Origin: Hyphomonadaceae bacterium
GTDB taxonomy: Bacteria > Pseudomonadota > Alphaproteobacteria > Caulobacterales > Aquidulcibacteraceae
DNA length: 64,000 nucleotides
NCBI GenBank assembly: GCA_019753175.1
Contig: JAIELK010000012.1
Location: 1-64,000, forward strand
Reading direction: 5' to 3'
The position numbers and the translations under genes are program-made. Below are positions 1,332 to 53,973 of this stretch, in pieces. Positions within the stretch are counted from its first letter, which is position 1. Every line of letters starts with the position of its first letter. Below the pieces are notes generated by a model, which saw nothing but the letters and a program-made list of their open reading frames with translations, was not told where the DNA came from and did no database searches.

Positions 1332-2651
1332 TCACCGCAACGCCTCCGCCAACATGGCGAAACCGTCCTTGATCGGCGTGCGTTCCTCGCGCGCTTGCGT
1401 CAGAAATGCTTCGAGCGCGGGCCGGACGCGCACGGCTTCGTCGACTTCGGCGTCGGCCCCGGGCTTGTAAGCGCCGATACGGATCAGCTCTTCCATTTCC
1501 GCGTAAAGCGAGAGCGCCGCGCGCGCGCGGAGCACAAGCGCGTTCTCCTCCGCCGCATGACACATCGGCATCAGCCGCGAGATCGATTTGAGCACGTTGA
1601 TCGCGGGATAACGGCCGCGCTCGGCGATGGCGCGCTCCATGACAATGTGACCGTCGAGAATGCCGCGCACGGCGTCGGCGATCGGCTCGTTGTGGTCGTC
1701 ACCGTCGACGAGCACCGTGAAGAGCGCCGTGATGGAGCCCTGCTCACCTTCGCGCCCCGGCCCTGCCCGCTCCATCAGCTTCGGCAATTCTGCGAACACG
1801 GACGGCGTGTAGCCTTTTGTCGTCGGCGGCTCGCCCACCGACAGACCGATCTCGCGCTGCGCCATGGCGAAACGGGTTACGCTGTCGACCAGCAGCAGTA
1901 CATCCTTGCCTTCGTCGCGGAAGTATTCCGCCACCGCACAGGCCATGTGCGGCGCGAGTCGCCGCCGTGCTGCGCTCTCATCGGACGTGGCGACGACGAC
2001 GACGGAGCGCCGGCGGCCCTCTTCGCCGAGCGTATCCTCGATGAACTCCTTCACCTCGCGCCCGCGCTCACCGACCAAGCCAATGACGATGACGTCAGCG
2101 CTCGCGCCGCGCGCCAACATCGACATCAGCACCGACTTTCCGACGCCCGAGCCCGCGAACACGCCCATGCGCTGCCCGCGACAGAGCGCGGCAAAGGCGT
2201 TGATGGCGCGCACGCCGACATCGAGCCGGCCGCCGACGCGTGAGCGATCATGCGCCGAAGGCGGCGGCGCGCGCACAAGCTGCGGCTTGACGCCCTGCGC
2301 CAGCGGCCCCTCCCCGTCAACGGGACGGCCGAAGCAATCGATCACGCGCCCCAACCACGCGCGCGAGGGGCGCACCATGGGCGCTGCGCCCTCAAGACTC
2401 ACGCGCGCGCCTGGACGGATCGCTTCGATCGAGTCGTACGGCGCGAACAACGCGCGGTCCCCGCGGAAGCCGACGATTTCGGCGCGCACGTCGCGTGCGC
2501 CGTGAATGGTCGCGCGCGCGCCAAGCGCCAAGGCTTCCGTCGGGCCGCTGGCTTCGATCAACGCGCCTGACAAGCCGGTGACGCGCCCTTCGAAACGGCG
2601 CACTTCGAGCGCATCGATCTCGTGCGCGAGTCTGGAAAGGACGGAGACCAT
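1332..2651 (-). CDS. fliI: flagellum-specific ATP synthase FliI
   Basis: A 439-residue F1-beta-like ATPase that energises flagellar type III export at the base of the basal body. Visible motifs are a Walker A loop (AGSGVGKS, near residue 168), a Walker B region ending [18 protein letters not shown], and the signature [20 protein letters not shown] specific for FliI/T3SS ATPases over F1. The length is normal. It starts with an ATG at 2651, directly beside the divergent ctrA promoter region, and is followed by fliJ. CtrA control is plausible because flagellar genes are classical CtrA targets, but no canonical box was seen immediately upstream of this start. Confidence 0.97.
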
Positions 2652-2721
2652 AAGCTGCTCACAGCAAATGCAGTGACATGGTGAACATCGCGTTTACCAA
2701 AAGGCCGCGAAGACCCTGGAT

Positions 2722-2890
2722 GATTCCGAGGCCGCAATCATTCGCTCTACTAGTATGAGCACTTTTTTGAGACGCAGAGTCTTGCGCGACACCCCGAACA
2801 GACTCATTGAGATTCTGCGGTTTCGCTAGCTTTCGATGGTCCGAACAGACTTTCTTAAGACATGAGTCTGTTAATAGCTCGAAAGCTTAA
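2722..2890. promoter_or_regulatory. fliI-ctrA intergenic regulatory region with GANTC and TTAA clusters
   Basis: Five GANTC methylation sites fall within 147 bp: 2722 (GATTC), 2777 (GAGTC), 2801 (GACTC), 2811 (GATTC) and 2864 (GAGTC). An 11-bp direct repeat CCGAACAGACT occurs at 2794 and 2841. An 8-bp inverted repeat AACAGACT/AGTCTGTT occupies 2844-2851 and 2865-2872. Three TTAA half-sites lie at 2855, 2871 and 2887, exactly 16 bp apart. In Caulobacter the ctrA promoters are controlled by CcrM methylation of GANTC and by CtrA binding to TTAA motifs. The density here suggests the same logic, although the TTAA spacing is not the canonical N7. Confidence 0.7.
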
Positions 2891-2938
2891 CGTAGCCGCT
2901 GGGGCGGCGTGCATGCGCGCTGTGGTCGGAGAGGGCAA

Positions 2939-3658
2939 ATGCGAGTCTTGTTGATCGAGGATGACAGCGCGACAGCGCAGGGCATCGAACTGATGCTGAA
3001 GTCAGAGGGCTTCAACATCTACTCGACCGATCTTGGCGAGGAAGGCATCGACCTCGGCAAGCTCTACGACTACGACATCATCGTACTCGACCTGTCGCTG
3101 CCGGACATGCACGGCTACGAGGTGCTAAAGCAGCTGCGCGTGGCGCGGGTCAACACGCCAATCCTGATCCTGTCCGGCACCGCCGACATCGACACCAAGG
3201 TGCGCGGCCTCGGCTACGGCGCCGACGATTACATGACCAAGCCCTTCAACAAGGACGAGCTGATCGCGCGCATCAATGCGATCGTGCGCCGCTCCAAGGG
3301 GCATGCTCATTCCACTATCAAAACGGGCGACATCGTCGTCAATCTCGACGCCAAGACGGTCGAGGTCGACGCCCAGCGCGTGCATCTGACCGGCAAAGAA
3401 TATCAGATGCTGGAGTTGCTCTCGCTGCGCAAAGGCACGACGCTGACCAAGGAGATGTTCCTCAATCATCTCTACGGCGGCATGGACGAGCCGGAACTGA
3501 AGATCATCGACGTCTTCATCTGCAAGCTGCGCAAGAAACTGGCGGCTGCCACCGGCGGCGACCACTATATTGAGACGGTGTGGGGCCGCGGCTACGTGCT
3601 GCGCGACCCGCAGGAGCCCTCGGTGGCGCTGTCGCCGACCAGTGGCGTCGCAGCATAG
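2939..3658 (+). CDS. ctrA: cell-cycle master response regulator CtrA
   Basis: A 239-residue OmpR-family regulator. The receiver domain begins [20 protein letters not shown] and carries the phospho-acceptor Asp51 ([17 protein letters not shown]), the switch Thr/Ser region and Lys ([10 protein letters not shown]). The winged-helix DNA-binding domain includes [20 protein letters not shown] and [16 protein letters not shown], a near-invariant CtrA signature. The protein ends in Val-Ala-Ala, matching the C-terminal Ala-Ala degron used by ClpXP in Caulobacter CtrA. The ATG at 2939 is chosen because CtrA proteins start MRVL. It is divergent from fliI, and its promoter carries GANTC and TTAA clusters. 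Confidence 0.98.
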
Positions 3659-3675
3659 TCACCGACTCAAGCGAG

Positions 3676-4235
3676 TCAGCCGGCCCCGTCATAAGCGCGC
3701 CGAAGGATTGCGATCAGCGCGGCATCGACCTCGCCGGCGTCGGCAAGCGCCGCGATGTACTGGCACATGCCGCCGGGCGGTTGCGCCTTGATGCGCGGGT
3801 GCGCAACCTGCTCCTTGAGATTGAGCCCTAGCTCGAAGCGATCGTTGGTCTTCGGTCCCAGCATCGCGAACTGCTTCTTGCGCCGCAGCGACACGTATCC
3901 CTTCTTCGGGGCGATTTCGAATTCGCCGAAGCCTTCGACGGCGCGCATCAGCTTGTCATGGACGGGACGAAGGCGCGCCTCTTGCCGGCATAGATCTCGG
4001 CGAGCGCATCGCCTTCACTGTTTCCCGTCGCCTTCGTCGACATAAGCGCGACATGGGTCAGCGTGTGGGCGTCGCCGTGCCCGAGCTTGAACATCTCCAT
4101 CGCCCAGGCGCGCACCTCGCCATGCTTTGTCAGCCCAGATTTGCCAATTGCAGCCGTCAGCTGAGCAAGGCTTTTCCCGGTCTTCTTCTCGATATTGGCG
4201 ATTTGCGTCGCCACCGCCTTTTGCGGATCAACCAT
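3676..4235 (-). pseudogene. DUF4287/DUF5655 domain protein, split by a frameshift
   Basis: Two adjacent reading frames together give one protein. The 5' part (4235-3948, 95 aa, starts MVDPQKAVATQIANIEKKTG) is the DUF4287 domain. The 3' part (3948-3676, 90 aa) contains FEIAPKKGYVSLRRKKQFAM and PPGGMCQYIAAL, which are DUF5655 signatures. Around 3975-3990 the residues expected across the junction (LRPVHDKLM) are encoded in the frame of the second part, consistent with loss of one base near the AAGAGG run. The stop of the first part and the ATG of the second overlap as TGATG, so reinitiation could still make the second half. The 5' ATG overlaps the end of the SRPBCC gene, implying cotranscription. 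A true mutation and a sequencing error are both possible. Confidence 0.75.
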
Positions 4236-4776
4236 CGTTGGCCGCCCGCGCCGCGCCGGTCGAGGCGTAACGCTGCAAGCGGTCGAGCTGATTCATCAGC
4301 ACCATGTCCACCGCGGGCGCCATCGCGTCGAGTCCGAGCGAAGCATCCCCGGAAACGCGGTAATTCATGGTGATCTTCGCGCCATCACCGTCGGGCGCGA
4401 CCACAATGGTCAGCACGCCACCCGCGCCGATCGCCTGCAACGGTCCCAGCGCGCCGGCCATCCGCAGGGTGCGCACGCCTTCATGCTCCATCACCATGAT
4501 GACGCGGGCGTGCTCGACCGACTGATCCGCCCAACGTTCGCAGAAACATCCCCCGGCGCGGGTCGCGAGCGACAGGCGCCGCGCATCGCCAGAGTACGTG
4601 TGTGCGCCATCCCACCATTGGCTGATGCGCGCCACAGACCGCCAGACGTGGTCGGGGCTGTCCCCAGCCAAACGCTCGCCCTGCACGACGAACATGCTCG
4701 GCGTGGCCTCGGACACCTCAGCCTGCGCAGGCACCACGGTGAAAAACGCCAGAACAGCGTACAAGAACAAACGCAT
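4228..4776 (-). CDS. secreted SRPBCC-fold protein
   Basis: A 182-residue protein starting MRLFLYAVLAFFTVVPAQAEV, a clear signal peptide with Ala-x-Ala cleavage near residue 18. The body has the SRPBCC (START/polyketide-cyclase) pattern DHVWRSVARISQWWDGAHTYSGDA and a terminal helix VDMVLMNQLDRLQRYA. These proteins bind hydrophobic ligands in a deep cavity; the ligand here is unknown. The start at 4776 has a GGGGAGG ribosome binding site. The longer upstream reading overlaps the TetR gene and is not used. It is divergent from a TetR regulator with a palindromic operator between them, and cotranscribed with the DUF4287 gene. Confidence 0.8.
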   Translation of the reverse strand: MRLFLYAVLAFFTVVPAQAEVSEATPSMFVVQGERLAGDSPDHVWRSVARISQWWDGAHTYSGDARRLSLATRAGGCFCERWADQSVEHARVIMVMEHEGVRTLRMAGALGPLQAIGAGGVLTIVVAPDGDGAKITMNYRVSGDASLGLDAMAPAVDMVLMNQLDRLQRYASTGAARAANDG

Positions 4777-4794
4777 GACTCCTCCCCAAGGACT

Positions 4795-4810
4795 TGATTG
4801 AATGATCAAT
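4795..4810. promoter_or_regulatory. palindromic TetR operator candidate (site 1)
   Basis: TTGAT-N6-ATCAA at 4795-4809, with a second nested inverted repeat ATTGA-N4-TCAAT ending at 4810, lies about 20 bp upstream of the SRPBCC start codon. A related perfect 12-bp palindrome lies about 95 bp away on the TetR side. The shared TTGAT/ATCAA half-sites suggest one regulator binds both. Confidence 0.5.
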
Positions 4811-4858
4811 CTACACACCAACTTGCCTACGTCAAGTTCGACCGCCCCCCCTCGCTGA

Positions 4859-5521
4859 GTGCGTCCGAGCCCTCTTGACGTGGAGTTGCTTGATCGATCA
4901 AACAAAGGCGTGAAGGCTTCATCCCCGCGAGAGAAGATCGTCTTTGCCGCCATGGAGCTGTTTTGGCTCAAGGGCTACATTTCGACGTCGATCGCTGACC
5001 TGCTCAGCCGCACCCAGCTCAATTCCGGCAGCCTCTATCACGCGTTCCCGTCGAAGCAGGACGTGCTGCTCGCCGTGCTGGAGGCTTATCGCGATGGTAT
5101 TGGCGAGCAATTGCTCGAGCCTGCCTGGCGTGGCGTCGAGGATCCGATCGACAAGATCTTCGCGCTATTGCAGCACTATCGGACGCTGATCCTCGAGTCC
5201 GACTGCACCTATGGCTGCCCGATCGGATCGTTGGCGCTTGAGCTGCACGAGCCCGACCCGGCGGTGCGCGAATTGCTCGCGGCCAACTTCCAGAACTGGA
5301 CCAAGGCCATTGAGGAGTGCCTGGAGGCCGCCGGCGCACGGATACCGCCAGGCGCCGAAAAGAAGGCGCTGGCGCAATTCGTGCTGACGGCGATGGAAGG
5401 CGGCGTCATGCAGGCCCGCACCCATCGCGATGTGGCTTACTTCGATCGCGCTGTCAGCCAGCTGCGTGCTCACTTCGATCTGCTCGAGCAAAGCGCGCGC
5501 GCGCTGGCGGCGGCGCCCTAG
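4859..5521 (+). CDS. TetR/AcrR family transcriptional regulator
   Basis: Up to 220 residues. The N-terminal DNA-binding domain shows the TetR helix-turn-helix: REKIVFAAMELFWLKGYISTSIADLL followed by NSGSLYHAFPSKQDVLLAVLEAY. The C-terminal ligand domain (about 90-205) contains CTYGCPIGSLALEL, typical of the LmrA/YxaF-like C-terminal class. The start is uncertain. GTG codons exist at 4859, 4880 and 4910; no strong ribosome binding site picks between them, and a 12-bp palindrome at 4890-4901 would lie inside the coding region for the first two. The longest form is given. It probably represses the divergent SRPBCC-DUF4287 operon and itself. Confidence 0.85.
   Translation: MRPSPLDVELLDRSNKGVKASSPREKIVFAAMELFWLKGYISTSIADLLSRTQLNSGSLYHAFPSKQDVLLAVLEAYRDGIGEQLLEPAWRGVEDPIDKIFALLQHYRTLILESDCTYGCPIGSLALELHEPDPAVRELLAANFQNWTKAIEECLEAAGARIPPGAEKKALAQFVLTAMEGGVMQARTHRDVAYFDRAVSQLRAHFDLLEQSARALAAAP
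4890..4901. promoter_or_regulatory. palindromic TetR operator candidate (site 2)
   Basis: TTGATCGATCAA is a perfect 12-bp palindrome just before the GTG at 4910. Its half-sites match those of the palindrome at 4795-4810. If it is an operator, the true TetR start may be the 4910 GTG. Confidence 0.5.
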
Positions 5522-5533
5522 CAAGGCTCACGA

Positions 5534-7186
5534 TCACAGCGCCTCGTGCGTCACCTCGCCCTCGCACATCGTCAGCACCGGACGGGCGCGCGGGATATCG
5601 GCCGGCTCGCACGTCATCAGATCGGCTGAGAAGCAGGAAAGATCGGCGCGCTTGCCGACTTCGATCGTTCCGCGTTCGGCTTCGCTGAACGCAGCGAAGG
5701 CCGGCCCGATCGTTAGCATCGCCAGCGCCTCAGCGCGAGAAACACGCTCCTGCAGGCGCCAGTTCGGACCCGCGAAACCGTTGAGATCGTGGCGATGGCA
5801 GGCGGCGTAGAACTCGATCAGCGGATCGCCCTTCTCCACCGGCGCATCGGAGCCGCCGGCAATCACCGCGCCGGAGCGCAGCAACGCATTCCACGCATAG
5901 GCGCCAGCGAGGCGCTGGTCGCCCAGCCGCGCCGGCGCAAAGTGCAGATCGCTGATCGCGTGCGAAGGCTGCATTGATGCGATCACGCCCATCTGCGCGA
6001 AGCGCGGAATATCGGTGGGATCGATCACCTGCGCGTGCTCGATACGCCACCGTGCGGCGCGCAAGGCGCTGGGATCGCCGGCGAAGGCGTCGCGGTAAAC
6101 ATCAAGCACCAGTCGATTGCCGCGATCGCCGATCGCGTGCGTGGCGAGCTGCACGCCGCGCTCGCGCGCTCGGCGCGCGAACCGAGCGATCTCTTCCGGC
6201 GGCATCACCAACAAGCCTGAGGTATCCGCGTCGCTGTAGGGCGCCAGCAGCGCGGCGCCGCGCGAACCGAGCGCGCCGTCCACATAAAGTTTGACGCCGC
6301 GCACGCGCGCGCGCCCCATGCCAAAGGGTCCGCGCACAAACACGGTCTCGGAATCCTCCGGGGTCAGATAAAGGTCGGCGTTCAGCGGCAAAGCGCCATG
6401 TGCCGCGGAGTCGAGAAACAGCATGGCCTCTTCGCCGCTGGTGCTCATATTGGCTACGCCCGTCCATCCGCGCGATGCATAGAGCCGCGCCGCTTCCGCT
6501 AGCGCATCACGCTTCATCGCCGCTGTCGGCGCCGGCAGGCGCGACTGCACCAGTGTCATCGCGTTATCGATCAGCATGCCTGTGGCGGCGCCGGATGCGT
6601 CGCGTTCGATGCTGCCGCCGTCGGGGTCGCGCGTGGCGCTGTCGATCCCGCCCAATGCAAGCGCGGCCGAGTTGGCGACCGCGGCATGGCCATCAATGCG
6701 TTCGAGATAGACGGGCCGGTCGCGGACAATCGCTTCGAGGTCCGCACGCGTTGGGAAGCGCCGCTCCGGCCAATGGGTCTCGATCCAGCCTCGCCCGACA
6801 ATCGGTCCCTCGGGATGTGCACGAGCATAGTCACGCAAGCGTTGCTGCAGGTCCGCGAGCGAAGCGACCCCGACAAGATCCAGCATCATCGCGGCGAGAC
6901 CGACCTGGGGCAAATGCACGTGCGCATCGTTAAACCCCGGAAACGCCGCCGCGCCCTGCAGATTGATCTCGCGGGCGGGAACGCCCGAGCGCGCGTCAGC
7001 GAGCACGCCGGCAAAAACGAACCGGCCAGCGCGAATGCGCACCGCTTCGACGCGAGAAGCGGCGGCGACGCCTGTGTAGATGGCGCCGCCGTGGATGATA
7101 ATGTCAGCTGCGCTCGCGCCTTGTGCGCATCCCGCCGCCAAAGCAGCGAGCGCCAGCTGCCGCCGATTCCACCTCATCATCGCCAT
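5534..7186 (-). CDS. YtcJ-like amidohydrolase, exported
   Basis: A 550-residue metal-dependent amidohydrolase of the YtcJ/AepA type. Motifs are GFNDAHVHLP (metal-binding H-x-H), ATHAIGDRGNRLVLDVY (metal and substrate His/Asp) and GGSDAPVEKGDPLIEFYAA (catalytic Asp). The N-terminus MAMMRWNRRQLALAALAAGC carries a twin-arginine-like motif, a hydrophobic stretch and a possible lipobox (LAAGC), suggesting periplasmic or membrane-anchored location. The ATG at 7186 is selected by the GGGAG site about seven bases upstream. It is the last gene of a minus-strand cluster with a Rieske oxygenase and APC permease, which suggests hydrolysis of an amide- or imide-containing substrate. The substrate is unknown. 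Confidence 0.88.
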   Translation of the reverse strand: MAMMRWNRRQLALAALAAGCAQGASAADIIIHGGAIYTGVAAASRVEAVRIRAGRFVFAGVLADARSGVPAREINLQGAAAFPGFNDAHVHLPQVGLAAMMLDLVGVASLADLQQRLRDYARAHPEGPIVGRGWIETHWPERRFPTRADLEAIVRDRPVYLERIDGHAAVANSAALALGGIDSATRDPDGGSIERDASGAATGMLIDNAMTLVQSRLPAPTAAMKRDALAEAARLYASRGWTGVANMSTSGEEAMLFLDSAAHGALPLNADLYLTPEDSETVFVRGPFGMGRARVRGVKLYVDGALGSRGAALLAPYSDADTSGLLVMPPEEIARFARRARERGVQLATHAIGDRGNRLVLDVYRDAFAGDPSALRAARWRIEHAQVIDPTDIPRFAQMGVIASMQPSHAISDLHFAPARLGDQRLAGAYAWNALLRSGAVIAGGSDAPVEKGDPLIEFYAACHRHDLNGFAGPNWRLQERVSRAEALAMLTIGPAFAAFSEAERGTIEVGKRADLSCFSADLMTCEPADIPRARPVLTMCEGEVTHEAL

Positions 7187-22934: not shown

Positions 22935-22954
22935 GGGCCCGGCGGGACATTCGC

Positions 22955-23101
22955 CCTTCTCCCCCGCGAGGGGGAGAAGGTGGCGCGAAGCGCCGGATGA
23001 GGGGGCAGGTGTCGGAGCGAAGCGCGGCGCTCAATTCTCCTCGCCGCCCCCTCACCCGTTCGAACAAGTTCGAACGACCTCTCCCCCTCGCGGGGGAGAG
23101 G
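22955..23101. repeat. interspersed palindromic repeat between trpB and trpA
   Basis: The left end is a hairpin with an 11-bp perfect stem (CCTTCTCCCCC, loop GCGA, 22955-22980). The right end is a second hairpin with a 10-bp stem (CCTCTCCCCC, loop TCGC, 23078-23101). The core contains GAAGGTGGCGCGAAGCGCC then GGATGAGGGG, and two adjacent GTTCGAAC palindromes (about 23058-23075). The same core pattern recurs inside polA (52596-52721), showing that this is a dispersed family. Confidence 0.85.
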
Positions 23102-23115
23102 TTTGGAGCCTGCGC

Positions 23116-50979: not shown

Positions 50980-53973
50980 CTAATGCGCCGCACCCCAAGT
51001 CGCGCCGGCCTTTGCGTCCACTGTGAGCGGCACGCTCAGCGCCGCGGCTGGCGCGGGCGCGGCTTCCATCACGCGCTTGGCCAGGGCGCAGAGCGCGTCA
51101 GCTTCCGCTTTTGGCGCTTCGAACACCAATTCGTCGTGCACTTGTAAGAGCATGCGGGCCTGAAGGCCCGCGCTGCGTAGCGCCTCGGGCAGGCGCACCA
51201 TGGCGCGGCGGATGATGTCAGCGGCGGCGCCTTGCAGCGGCGCGTTGATCGCCTGGCGCTCGGCAAAGGCGCGTTCCTGATAGTGCTTGGACTTGGCGCC
51301 GGCGATCCAGATGCGGCGGCCGAAAATGGTCTTCACATAGCCATTGGCGCGCGCATAGGCTTTGGCCTCCTCCATGTAGTCGCGAATGCCGGGGAAGCGC
51401 TCGAAATATTTCTTGATATACGAATCCGCCTCGCCGCGCTCGATGCTGAGATTGCGCGCGAGCCCGAAGGCGGAAATGCCATAGATGATGCCGAAATTGA
51501 TCGCTTTCGCCTGGCGGCGGATTTCGCTCGGCATGTCCTTCACCGGCACGCCGAACATTTCCGAGGCGGTCAGCGCGTGAATGTCGATCCCCTCGGCGAA
51601 CGCCTGCTTCAATTGCGGAATGTCGGCGACGTGCGCGAGCAGGCGGAGCTCAATCTGCGAATAATCCGCCGAAACCAGCACATTGCCGGGCTCGGCGATG
51701 AAAGCTTCGCGCAGACGGCGGCCCTCCTCGGTGCGGATCGGGATGTTCTGCAGATTGGGATCGTTGGACGATAGCCGCCCGGTCGTCGTGGCGGCGAGCG
51801 CGTAACTGGTGTGCACGCGATTGGTGCGCGGATTGATCGCTTGCGCCAAATTTTCGGTGTAGGTGGATTTGAGCTTCGACAGCTCGCGCCAATCGAGCAC
51901 CACACGCGGCAGCGCATGGCCTTCATCCGCCAGTTGTTCAAGCACAGACGCGTCGGTCGACCAAGCGCCCGTCTTGGTCTTGGCTCCACCATTGAGCTTC
52001 ATCTCGTCGAACAGGATTTCACCGACCTGTTTGGGCGAACCTATGTTGAAGGCGCGACCGGCAACGCTTTCGGCCTCCGCTTCGAATTGCAGCATGCGCT
52101 GGGCGAAATCGCCGGAGAGGCGCGACAGCATGTGCGGGTCAATCTTGATTCCTTCGCGCTCCATGTCGGCGAGCACCGGCGGCAGCGGCCGCTCCAGCGT
52201 CTCGTACACCACGATCAGCCGCTCGCGCGCGAGTTCCGGCTTCAGCTTGCGCCACAGCCGCAAAGCAGCGTCCGCGTGCTCGCAGGAATAGAGCCCCGCG
52301 CGCTCGATCGGCGCGAGATCGAAACCGGTCTGTGCCTTGCCCTTGCCGACCACGTCGGCCAGCGGGGTCAGCGCATGGCCCAGATGCTTTTCGACCAGCG
52401 AAGCTTTGTCATGCGGATCAAGCCCGCCATAGAGCGCGTACGACATCAGCATCGGATCGTCGTAGGGGCCGAGCGCAACGCCATGATGAGCAAACAGCGC
52501 AATGTCCCATTTGATGTTGAGCCCGATCTTGAGAACCGAGGGATCTTCGAGCAAGGGTTTCAGCGCCGCGAGCGCCGCGGCGAGGGGGATCTGCGCTTCT
52601 CCCCCTCCCCCTTGCGGCGAGGGGGTTGGGGAGTGAGGGGCGTGCAAACGATCCGGTGCCTGGGCGACGGAACGCCCCTCATCCGGCCGCTCCGCGGCCA
52701 CCTTCTCCGCAAGGGAGAAGGTTCGCTCCGCTTCGAGCGCCAACTCGCTCGCAAACAATTCCCCCGCCCTTGGATCGCCGGCCCGGTGCGCCAGCGGCAC
52801 GTAGCACGCATCGTTGGCGCCCAGCGCCAGCGACAGCCCGACCAGCTCCGCGCGTTGCGCGTCGAACGACGTCGCTTCGGTATCGAGCCCGACAATGCCG
52901 GCCGCTTGCGCGCGCGCGATCCAGCGTTCGAGTTCGCCCACGTCGCGCACGATCTTGTACGATTCGCGGCGAAACTCAGTTTCCACCGCTTCCACGATTG
53001 GCCCGCCTGCTCCGCTTTTGGCGGGGGTGGCGCTCGGCGCGGCGTCCGCCGCATAGGCGGCCACGATCGCTGCGCCCTTCTCCTTGGCGTAATGCTCGCG
53101 CACACGCCGGCCGAGTGTGCGGAACTCCATCACATCGAGAAAACGCAGCAGCATAGCGGGATCGGGCTCGCGCACGGCGAAATCCTCCCATTTCTCCTCC
53201 ACCGGCACAGTGTCCATCAGCGTGACGAGGCGGCGCGAAAGCCTGATCTGATCGGCGAAATTGATCAAAGTCTCGCGCCGCTTCGGTTGCTTGATCTCAT
53301 TCGCGCGCTCCAGGATCGCATCGAGGGAGCCGAAATGCGCCATCAACTCGGCGGCGGTTTTCGGGCCGATGCCGGGCGCGCCGGGCACGTTGTCGGTTGA
53401 ATCGCCGATCAGCGCCTGCACGTCGATCACCTTGTCGGGGGTGACGCCGAATTTCTCCAGCACCGCTTCGGGGCCGAGCGCGCGGTTCTTCATCGGATCG
53501 TAGAGCTGGATGATGCCGTCGACGATCAGCTGCATCAAATCCTTGTCAGAGGAAACGATCTTCACCGTCGCGCCCGCCGCCGCCGCTTGGCGCGCATAAG
53601 TCGCGATCAGATCGTCGGCCTCGTAGCCGCCCATCTCGACGCAGGGCAGATTGAACGCGCGCGTGGCGTCGCGGATCAGCGGAAATTGCGGGATGAGATC
53701 TTCCGGCGCCGGGGGGCGATGAGCCTTGTATTCGGGATAAAGTTCGTTGCGGAACGTCTGTTCGCTTTTGTCGAAAATCACCGCGAGATGCGTGGGCGCC
53801 TCGCTCCCCTTCATCTCCTCCAGAAACTTCCACACCATGTTGCAAAAGCCCGCGACCGCGCCGACGCTCAACCCATCGCTCGCACGCGTCAGCGGCGGCA
53901 AGGCGTGATAGGCGCGGAAAATGTAGCCGGAGCCGTCAATCAGGAAGAGGCGCGGCGCGGAGGATTTGGCCAT
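50980..53973 (-). CDS. polA: DNA polymerase I with in-frame repeat insert
   Basis: 997 residues, longer than the E. coli enzyme (928). The 5'-3' exonuclease (1-~290) starts RLFLIDGSGYIFRAYHALPP. The 3'-5' exonuclease (about 340-560) keeps the catalytic Asp and Glu in VGLDTEATSFDAQRAELVG. The polymerase has SADYSQIELRLLAHVAD (motif A), RRQAKAINFGIIYGISAFGLA (motif B) and LLQVHDELVFEAP (motif C). Between AERT and IPLAAALAAL, residues about 418-460 are encoded by an interspersed palindromic repeat, giving a Pro/Gly/Glu-rich loop absent from relatives. The last 90 bases are duplicated downstream. Confidence 0.97.
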   Translation of the reverse strand: MAKSSAPRLFLIDGSGYIFRAYHALPPLTRASDGLSVGAVAGFCNMVWKFLEEMKGSEAPTHLAVIFDKSEQTFRNELYPEYKAHRPPAPEDLIPQFPLIRDATRAFNLPCVEMGGYEADDLIATYARQAAAAGATVKIVSSDKDLMQLIVDGIIQLYDPMKNRALGPEAVLEKFGVTPDKVIDVQALIGDSTDNVPGAPGIGPKTAAELMAHFGSLDAILERANEIKQPKRRETLINFADQIRLSRRLVTLMDTVPVEEKWEDFAVREPDPAMLLRFLDVMEFRTLGRRVREHYAKEKGAAIVAAYAADAAPSATPAKSGAGGPIVEAVETEFRRESYKIVRDVGELERWIARAQAAGIVGLDTEATSFDAQRAELVGLSLALGANDACYVPLAHRAGDPRAGELFASELALEAERTFSLAEKVAAERPDEGRSVAQAPDRLHAPHSPTPSPQGGGGEAQIPLAAALAALKPLLEDPSVLKIGLNIKWDIALFAHHGVALGPYDDPMLMSYALYGGLDPHDKASLVEKHLGHALTPLADVVGKGKAQTGFDLAPIERAGLYSCEHADAALRLWRKLKPELARERLIVVYETLERPLPPVLADMEREGIKIDPHMLSRLSGDFAQRMLQFEAEAESVAGRAFNIGSPKQVGEILFDEMKLNGGAKTKTGAWSTDASVLEQLADEGHALPRVVLDWRELSKLKSTYTENLAQAINPRTNRVHTSYALAATTTGRLSSNDPNLQNIPIRTEEGRRLREAFIAEPGNVLVSADYSQIELRLLAHVADIPQLKQAFAEGIDIHALTASEMFGVPVKDMPSEIRRQAKAINFGIIYGISAFGLARNLSIERGEADSYIKKYFERFPGIRDYMEEAKAYARANGYVKTIFGRRIWIAGAKSKHYQERAFAERQAINAPLQGAAADIIRRAMVRLPEALRSAGLQARMLLQVHDELVFEAPKAEADALCALAKRVMEAAPAPAAALSVPLTVDAKAGATWGAAH
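52596..52721. repeat. interspersed palindromic repeat inside polA coding sequence
   Basis: Reading the minus strand it opens with a hairpin (CCTTCTCC/GGAGAAGG, 52701-52721), followed by GGTGGCCGCGGAGC, GGCCGGATGAGGGG, and closes with CCCCTCACTCCCC and a G/C hairpin near 52600-52630. This order and core (GAAGGTGGC...GCCGGATGAGGGG ... CCCCTCAC) match the trpB-trpA element at 22955-23101 on the opposite strand. It spans about 126 bp, a multiple of three, and contains no stop in the polA frame. Confidence 0.85.

Follow-up and report, generated by a model that had tools for sequence, protein, structure and literature searches.

Introduction

Protein-coding palindromes are best described in the intracellular bacteria Rickettsia and Wolbachia, with some enterobacterial cases. 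Rhizobium-specific intergenic mosaic elements are composite palindromic repeats of Alphaproteobacteria that lie mostly in spacers. These mosaic elements are cited in the available part of PMC2873474. As far as the accessible portion of PMC3767692 goes, the genes that host Rickettsia palindromic elements (RPE) include uvrC, ileS, a DNA helicase, and a DnaE-type polymerase (Table 1 of that source), different RPE groups lie close together in orthologues, and the authors consider hotspots; in this R. japonica paper, every Rickettsia orthologue compared is reported to carry insertions. In Rickettsia gmk, the insert is reported to be translated and the enzyme to stay active (PMC2229807, available in part). 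The available parts of PMC2759123 and PMC2229807 also describe RU-1, RU-2, and RU-3 (ERIC, YPAL), short palindromic repeats with open reading frames that are fused inside genes.

Here, we describe a palindromic segment within polA of a Hyphomonadaceae-like bacterium, found in a 64,000-nt stretch of DNA (hereafter, the window). We propose, with a probability of roughly three in four, that this segment is a selfish, mostly stop-free, non-autonomous palindromic repeat that is tolerated in certain protein loops and repeatedly fills them.

A palindromic element in frame within polA

The PolA protein encoded in the window matches NCBIfam PRK05755.1 at 1123.7 bits (E 0; cut-off 720). The gene and the parts of the element are as follows:

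50980..53973, minus strand: polA, DNA polymerase I, 997 aa (stop-free translation; NCBIfam PRK05755.1)
52599..52722, minus strand: palindromic element (family A), in frame, 124 nt, PolA residues 418-459 (matches to copies in its own genome and genus)
52701..52721, minus strand: hairpin I, CCTTCTCC-loop-GGAGAAGG (fold of the polA copy; consensus structure with double changes)
52685..52699, minus strand: hairpin II, GGCCGCGGAGCGGCC (fold of the polA copy; consensus structure)
52673..52680, minus strand: central stem, 5' arm, GAGGGGCG (fold of the polA copy; consensus structure)
52635..52642, minus strand: central stem, 3' arm, CGCCCCTC (fold of the polA copy; consensus structure)
52601..52625, minus strand: closing hairpin, CCCCCTCGCCGCAAGGGGGAGGGGG (fold of the polA copy; consensus structure)

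The modules run in the order hairpin CCTTCTCC..GGAGAAGG, hairpin GGCC..GGCC, GGATGAGGGGCG, a variable center, CGCCCCTCA, and a closing hairpin CCCCCTC..GAGGGGG. We set the limits of the element at its conserved ends, so that it begins at codon 418 and ends with base 1 of codon 459. Because 124 nt is not divisible by 3, the reading frame is kept by the whole allele and not by element length alone. The initial annotation had described an in-frame insert without a stop codon. Its coordinates and sequence hold, and the 997-aa PolA translates without stops.

It had further taken the insert for a copy of a repeat family, a claim that the absence of other genomic copies would have refuted. Many copies were found: BLAST yielded 38 matches to the polA element in its own genome (E <= 0.01, with some places counted on both strands), and 28 of the 30 genus genomes, own included, have matches at E <= 1e-4. 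Across the order, 13 of 200 genomes matched at E <= 1e-12, 11 from the same genus and two from another genus of the same family. Copies measure 114-127 nt in 40 of the 41 that we aligned (one is 133 nt), with consensus ends delimited as ACCYTCTCC and GGGGGAG. RNA folding of the polA element gave z = -3.6, with only 1 of 200 shuffles folding equally well, and the consensus structure from 23 sequences has 33 base pairs, 11 of them with changes on both sides. An Rfam search with two loci returned no match above the gathering score.

The polA insert had also been said to share its motif order with a non-coding repeat elsewhere in the window:

22955..23103, plus strand: related palindromic repeat of another subtype, between trpB and trpA (sequence, 50-nt match at 81%, long hairpin, gene names confirmed)

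Module order is indeed common to both, and the first 50 nt are 81% identical (BLAST, E 5.8e-5), but the spacer repeat proved to be a distinct subtype. It folds into a single, very long hairpin (-110 kcal/mol, z = -10), and a profile of the polA-type family run against the whole window at E <= 1e-4 matched only the polA copy and not the trpB-trpA repeat.

Across five genomes, full copies lie inside genes in 23 of 57 cases (5 of 15 in genome G003), although some of these loci were chosen with bias. Stop-free frames are equally common in copies outside genes; this comparison labeled in-gene copies by a stricter score than the 23/57 count, and L072, labeled outside genes under that score, lies in an imuB-like gene. 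One reading direction accounts for 19 of 23 in-gene copies. Several of these loci were picked by a peptide search that favors that direction, so we do not claim an orientation preference.

In-frame copies occur in 19 gene families of the genus (polA and 18 others), some of them assigned at scores below the model's curated cut-off. The same site is filled in more than one species in polA, uvrC, ileS (two sites), putA, metH, glyS, and the genes for an Lhr-like helicase and an ImuB-like protein, and two other palindrome families sit in the uvrC and ileS loops. Outside the genus, a related palindrome (profile E 1.4e-9) interrupts a different linker of polA in Mesorhizobium composti, again in frame.

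Filled and short PolA loops among relatives

Of 30 genus genomes, 27 could be read at the PolA site (status unread in G025, G008, and G018): six have full inserts, three have partial or cut ones, and 18 have short loops. The interval P393-Q461 is 30-31 aa long in 17 of the 18 short-loop genomes and 34 aa in the other (G011), compared with 59-68 aa in the five full carriers that no contig end truncates. Among the best 80 of 589 named PolA loci, the loop is 16-30 aa in 78, and the remaining two are genus members G015 and G010. The nearest named relatives are environmental genomes of Hyphomonadaceae type and other Alphaproteobacteria. Had all close relatives shared the loop without repeat-like DNA, the initial annotation would have failed; the 18 genomes without the insert rule this out.

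Part of the linker that sister species have is missing from filled polA alleles, which indicates that the insertion was not a clean cut-and-paste event. An AlphaFold model of the PolA exonuclease domain (61 sequences) reached a mean pLDDT of 87.5, with 1kfs as its best fold match, and the insert blocks scored 50-63. The insert, which the initial annotation had taken for an added Pro/Gly-rich loop, appears as a stretch of low confidence flanked by a strand and a helix (this was done for PolA only, and solvent exposure was not computed). As modeled, the exonuclease fold is intact and the polA insert is a floppy loop on it. A model of whole PolA with 23 genus sequences was poor (pLDDT 52) and was not used.

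Ancestry of the inserts

On a PolA tree built without the insert, from which G027 and G023 were left out, the five full carriers require at least five changes, and an AU test rejected them as one clade (p 4e-42). The inserts themselves mostly differ in ancestry at the same site. For only 2 of 26 in-gene inserts is the closest copy at the same site, and the polA inserts fall in three places on an element tree without support values. Pointing the other way, same-site identity is slightly higher overall (69.5% vs 67.2%, permutation p 0.051), and close same-site pairs do exist in metH (83%), the helicase (one pair, 82%), and uvrC (one pair, 90%).

The polA inserts of G000, G029, and G027 also resemble one another at 87-88%, and the G000 and G029 inserts match each other better than either matches any own-genome copy in the comparison (82%). 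Common descent of these three inserts is therefore probable, and they may stem from one insertion. Their dS is 0.15-0.28 and dN 0.10-0.13, whereas the 450 codons downstream of the insert give a dS of 0.77-0.90 and dN of 0.04-0.07. The low insert dS could result from gene conversion.

Silent sites more conserved than those of the gene, together with this likeness, fit a scenario of a single ancestral filling per site, followed by many losses and gene conversion from other copies, or by interspecies homologous recombination of filled alleles, so that insertion would merely seem repeated. We consider this unlikely, though not negligible. The uvrC loop, filled in about 18 of 26 rows as judged by eye, is also compatible with it. 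For recombination, the 36 codons before the G012 insert are 81.5% identical to G014 and 65-70% to sister species, whereas in other windows G012 is 77-95% identical to its sisters; however, local tree support is only 48 and finer windows are mixed, so we treat the hint that G012 gained its insert by recombination as undecided. Against a single early filling stand the number of changes on the PolA tree, the roughly ten losses that one early polA gain would cost (counted by eye on the tree), and the short loop in all 75 named loci unmatched to the genus (among the best 80 of 589). We infer independent gain over conversion.

The same low dS, along with the covarying pairs, would also fit a structural constraint, as expected if the insert were retained for usefulness, whether through a hairpin, RNA or DNA, in the polA message or through a peptide that tunes the 3'-5' exonuclease. 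We give this little credence: two-thirds of the readable genus genomes do without the insert, same-site inserts vary in length and sequence and, for uvrC and ileS, belong to different families, insert amino-acid divergence exceeds that of the gene, and the covariation may come from source copies. An ordinary variable Pro/Gly-rich linker with chance likeness, or an assembly artifact, can be set aside even though loop length varies (16-30 aa) across Alphaproteobacteria and several genus genomes are metagenome assemblies, because the polA insert reaches 90% DNA identity over 135 nt with a copy elsewhere, the single-contig genomes G003 and G002 likewise have copies inside genes, and neither the fold z-score nor the covariation is expected of a linker.

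Proposed spread of the element

Under our preferred reading of a selfish, tolerated repeat, a G+C-rich, non-autonomous palindrome of about 114-133 bp with four hairpins would spread in genomes of this Hyphomonadaceae-like genus; mobility is inferred. As the element is usually stop-free in the frame used, a copy inside a gene could be translated, although translation, too, is an inference. Copies in flexible loops of conserved proteins would persist because the protein still folds, and others would be purged. The loops of the genes named above would thus be landing pads filled more than once, with those of uvrC and ileS also taken by unrelated palindrome families. That recurrence reflects tolerance and not target choice, and that the host is unaffected, are likewise inferred.

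No target-site duplication was evident, in that flanking direct repeats of 3-8 nt around 41 copies were no commoner than in shuffles. A Y1 transposase (RAYT), the enzyme type that moves REP elements, was considered as the mover. Its number correlates with element copy number (rho 0.43 in 30 genomes; 0.62 in the 20 genomes >= 90% complete), from counts among the matches listed and without correction for kinship, and an element lies within 1 of 30 Y1 loci fetched (among 34 Y1 matches listed). With the correlation alone in support, and with the single-contig genome G003 having 23 element matches and zero Y1 transposases, this candidate is not established as the mover.

A broader and more tentative idea, which we hold as possible but would not bet on, is that fixed loops of information-processing proteins (among them UvrC, IleS, PolA, GlyS, the Lhr-like helicase, and the ImuB-like protein) serve as general landing pads. 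Unrelated protein-coding palindrome families would have refilled them, both in intracellular Alphaproteobacteria and in presumably free-living ones, by insertions that replace part of the native linker.

Comparison with known systems

The family differs from MITEs in lacking target-site duplication (41 copies) and from REP/BIME-type repeats in that the consensus of these copies ends without a GTAG or CGTC tag. Compared with Rhizobium mosaic and REP/BIME repeats, it has a substantial in-gene share (23/57 full copies in five genomes, with the biased choice noted above). RU-1, RU-2, and RU-3 are similar as palindromic repeats with open reading frames inside genes but have other hosts, and the available parts of PMC2759123 and PMC2229807 make no mention of repeated filling of one protein site.

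Rickettsia and Wolbachia palindromic elements are closest in kind: 100-150-bp multi-copy palindromes that occur both in spacers and, in frame, within conserved genes. The likeness to Rickettsia elements in the initial annotation stands at the level of analogy, resting on size, multiplicity, position in loops, and the way conserved genes are entered in frame. Our best reading, by analogy and without sequence comparison with RPE, is that the polA element works like these elements in a genus outside the Rickettsiales. The four kinds of host gene listed above for Rickettsia, from what is available of PMC3767692, are hosts in this genus too. RPE and Wolbachia elements occupy solvent-exposed places, and the PolA insert is a modeled low-confidence loop of uncomputed exposure. 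Unlike RPE, the family lies outside the Rickettsiales, with matches nearly confined to its own genus (200 order genomes searched). Protein-coding palindromes are common in this genus, whose named records are environmental genomes. In further contrast to Rickettsia, filled and short alleles here alternate between close species at one site, a natural experiment on whether such elements are selfish and merely tolerated and whether their sites are chosen or filtered, and one that could show how new peptide segments enter essential enzymes.

A palindromic element within polA

The polA gene lies on contig 8 of a 3.13-Mb genome (G000) and carries a multi-hairpin palindromic repeat (family A). As the initial annotation had claimed, the insert keeps the reading frame and introduces no stop.

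53973-50980, minus strand: polA, 997 codons, stop-free
52722-52599, minus strand: in-frame element in polA, encoding PolA residues 418-459

Read on the minus strand, the element consists of hairpin I, hairpin II, GGATGAGGGGCG, a variable centre, CGCCCCTCA, and a closing hairpin. The RNA fold of the polA segment has a z of -3.6, and only 1 of 200 shuffles was as good. Other genomic copies exist, as predicted: BLAST with the polA segment gave 38 matches in its own genome (E <= 0.01; some are both strands of one place) and matches in 28 of the 30 genomes of the genus, its own counted (E <= 1e-4).

The same order of motifs had also been noted for a repeat in the spacer between trpB and trpA, two gene names that we confirmed. 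The two are kin but distinct: the BLAST match covers only the first 50 nt of the spacer repeat (81% identity), the rest is unmatched, and a family profile search of the window did not find the spacer repeat at E <= 1e-4. Judged from sequence, it is a cousin of the polA element. It forms a palindrome longer than the polA element and different from it, and fills most of the spacer (22935-23115; fold -110 kcal/mol). The open trpA frame extends back through this palindrome to 22912, the TrpA family match begins downstream of it, and the palindrome may affect trpA expression.

Across 41 aligned copies, the distance between the same ends is 114-127 nt in 40 and 133 nt in one. The consensus structure, built from 23 copies, has 33 pairs; at 11 of these, one or more sequences differ at both partners. 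Of the 41 copies, 34 lack stops in frame +0 and 35 lack them in one antisense frame, whether they lie inside or outside genes. Readability thus belongs to the repeat as such, and alone it does not prove selection for coding.

In an order-level draw of 200 genomes, 13 match at E <= 1e-12, 11 from the same genus and two, with partial matches, from another genus of the family. At family level, 26 of 60 genomes match at E <= 1e-10, including five from outside the genus with matches only about 45-53 nt long. In both searches the number of candidates scored for each genome was limited; by these matches, the element is concentrated in its own genus.

The insert as a likely loop in PolA

Klenow-type structures align to PolA 337-397 and 461-997; between these blocks they have six residues and this PolA has 63. 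The AlphaFold model of the exonuclease domain (61 sequences) has a mean pLDDT of 87.5, and its closest solved fold is the Klenow fragment 1kfs. The blocks that hold the insert (pLDDT 50-63) follow a strand and precede a helix, and include two short helices of low confidence. By this model, the insert looks like a flexible loop added to a domain that remains intact.

PolA was readable in 27 of the 30 genus genomes (G025, G008, and G018 were left out). Six carry the full insert (G000, G029, G014, G012, G015, and G027, the last at a contig end). Three hold part of it: G010, G009 (judged by eye), and G019, where the contig breaks off. The loop is short in the remaining 18. The loop P393-Q461 spans 59-68 residues in the five full carriers without a contig-end cut and 30-31 in 17 of the 18 short-loop genomes (34 in G011). 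Among named polA loci (best 80 of 589), it spans 16-30 residues in 78, the two long loops being G015 and G010 themselves. Five of these 80 match genus genomes, and the other 75 are all short. Close relatives are thus not all loop-bearing, in keeping with the insertion first proposed. Native linker is partly absent from the filled alleles.

A related palindrome occurs in frame in Mesorhizobium composti polA (locus L147, 4959-5073), near residue 320. It sits in the linker preceding the 3'-5' exonuclease domain, a different site from that in the window genome.

Other host genes and other palindromes

Including polA, 19 host gene families were found, counting only ORFs that run through a copy and look coding on either side of it, and naming them with NCBIfam or Pfam. 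The others are uvrC, ileS (two sites), putA, metH, glyS, argS, a ligase-associated DEXH helicase (presumably Lhr-like), an imuB-like gene (Pfam IMS), a uvrD/pcrA-type helicase, epmA, two pyruvate dehydrogenase subunits, a chromate transporter, an ArnT-like gene (weak), rsmB, mnmC, rsmE, and the error-prone polymerase dnaE2, with two to three inserts. Some scores fall below the model's curated cut-off (e.g., pcrA, rsmB, and ArnT). In locus L083 (G000 C4), an error-prone polymerase ORF (2467-6237) holds two or three copies in one reading frame.

Judged by alignment or by place in the profile, the same site is filled across species in polA, uvrC, both ileS sites, putA, the DEXH helicase, metH, glyS, and the imuB-like gene; short-loop relatives were examined for polA, ileS, and uvrC only. 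Genes contain 23 of the 57 full copies counted over five genomes, a share biased upward by some loci that were picked via peptide match. In G003, a single contig with every locus in the DNA match list, the figure is 5 of 15.

Other palindromes fill the same loops. In six genomes (G001, G018, G022, G013, G026, and G021), the uvrC loop holds a second family in frame (loci L224, L218, L229, L226, L227, and L232), with ends CTCCCCC..GGGGGAG, often a CAGTCAGCTTCGCTGACAG core, and more copies at other loci. Sorted by eye, about 18 of 26 uvrC rows are filled, the remainder being short or gapped. The second ileS loop of G027, G029, and G026 holds a third family in frame, a 45-bp near-perfect palindrome (TTGGACCGCCGGCGTC...), at L185 3865-3913, L189 2689-2793, and L193 2702-2749. 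It is apparently doubled in G029 ileS and also sits inside the G029 putA frame (L068, about 2453-2491).

Ancestry of the inserts

Each site could have been filled by a single ancestral insertion. In a PolA tree without the insert, G012 sits among short-loop species (89-100% support), G014 next to G001 and G022 (100%), and G015 with G010 (100%), while G000, G029, G027, and G019 share a clade with G006, G021, and G013 (100%). A second tree, with outgroups and without G027 and G023, needs at least five changes (gains or losses) for the five full carriers, or six counting partial carriers, and forcing carriers into one clade was rejected (p 4e-42). In an element tree of 65 copies (branch supports not given; the G014 insert, too divergent, left out), the polA inserts occupy three places. 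Among 26 inserts at eight sites each filled in at least two species, the nearest of all 65 copies is at the same site for only two, both uvrC (G003 and G016). Same-site pairs (33) average 69.5% identity and other-site pairs (271) 67.2% (permutation p 0.051). The pattern is better explained by sites being filled separately, or overwritten by conversion, than by one inherited insertion.

Shared descent is supported by the polA inserts of G000, G029, and G027, which are 87-88% alike; those of G000 and G029 resemble each other more than any compared own-genome copy (82%). A single insertion probably underlies all three; that would imply loss in G006 and G021. Because of these inserts, we regard single insertion at each site as unlikely rather than excluded. 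Their silent divergence is 0.15-0.28, versus 0.77-0.90 across the next 450 codons of the gene, and their amino-acid divergence 0.10-0.13 versus 0.04-0.07. By these comparisons, the insert evolves like a repeat under little protein constraint.

Our preferred explanation, with a probability of roughly 0.76, is a selfish palindromic element tolerated in loops. The family, its sites, distribution, and structure are shown by computation, and we infer mobility, neutrality, independent gain, and translation. The element would spread by an unidentified process; a copy landing in frame would be translated and would persist in proteins that can bear the additional loop. The 41 copies showed no target-site duplication. 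Y1 transposases are present in 16 of 30 genus genomes, and their number correlates with element copy number (rho 0.43; 0.62 in the 20 genomes at least 90% complete), with copy numbers taken as at-least values and kinship uncorrected. In G003, however, no Y1 transposase was found alongside 23 element matches, and an element lies near the Y1 gene at only 1 of 30 Y1 loci examined (among 34 matches listed). A Y1-type transposase match with a TAG codon lies on G000 contig 8 (69690-70004), 5.7 kb past the window end.

Comparison with known elements

The likeness to Rickettsia palindromic elements drawn initially holds as an analogy: in-frame insertions occur there too, with uvrC and ileS as shared hosts. 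A R. japonica paper describes insertions in excinuclease ABC subunit C, isoleucyl-tRNA synthetase, an ATP-dependent DNA helicase, and DNA polymerase III alpha, and leaves undecided whether insertion sites are hotspots (PMC3767692). Related elements are reviewed elsewhere (PMC2229807 and PMC10969869), and a further paper describes coding palindromes in hairworm mitochondria (PMC6649704). Among the matches listed from the open-access literature (titles and abstract starts), none reports insertions of this kind in an alphaproteobacterium that lives freely. The element shares the way of life of the Rickettsia palindromic elements but is a family in another host group, where the same loops are filled again and again, some of them by more than one family.
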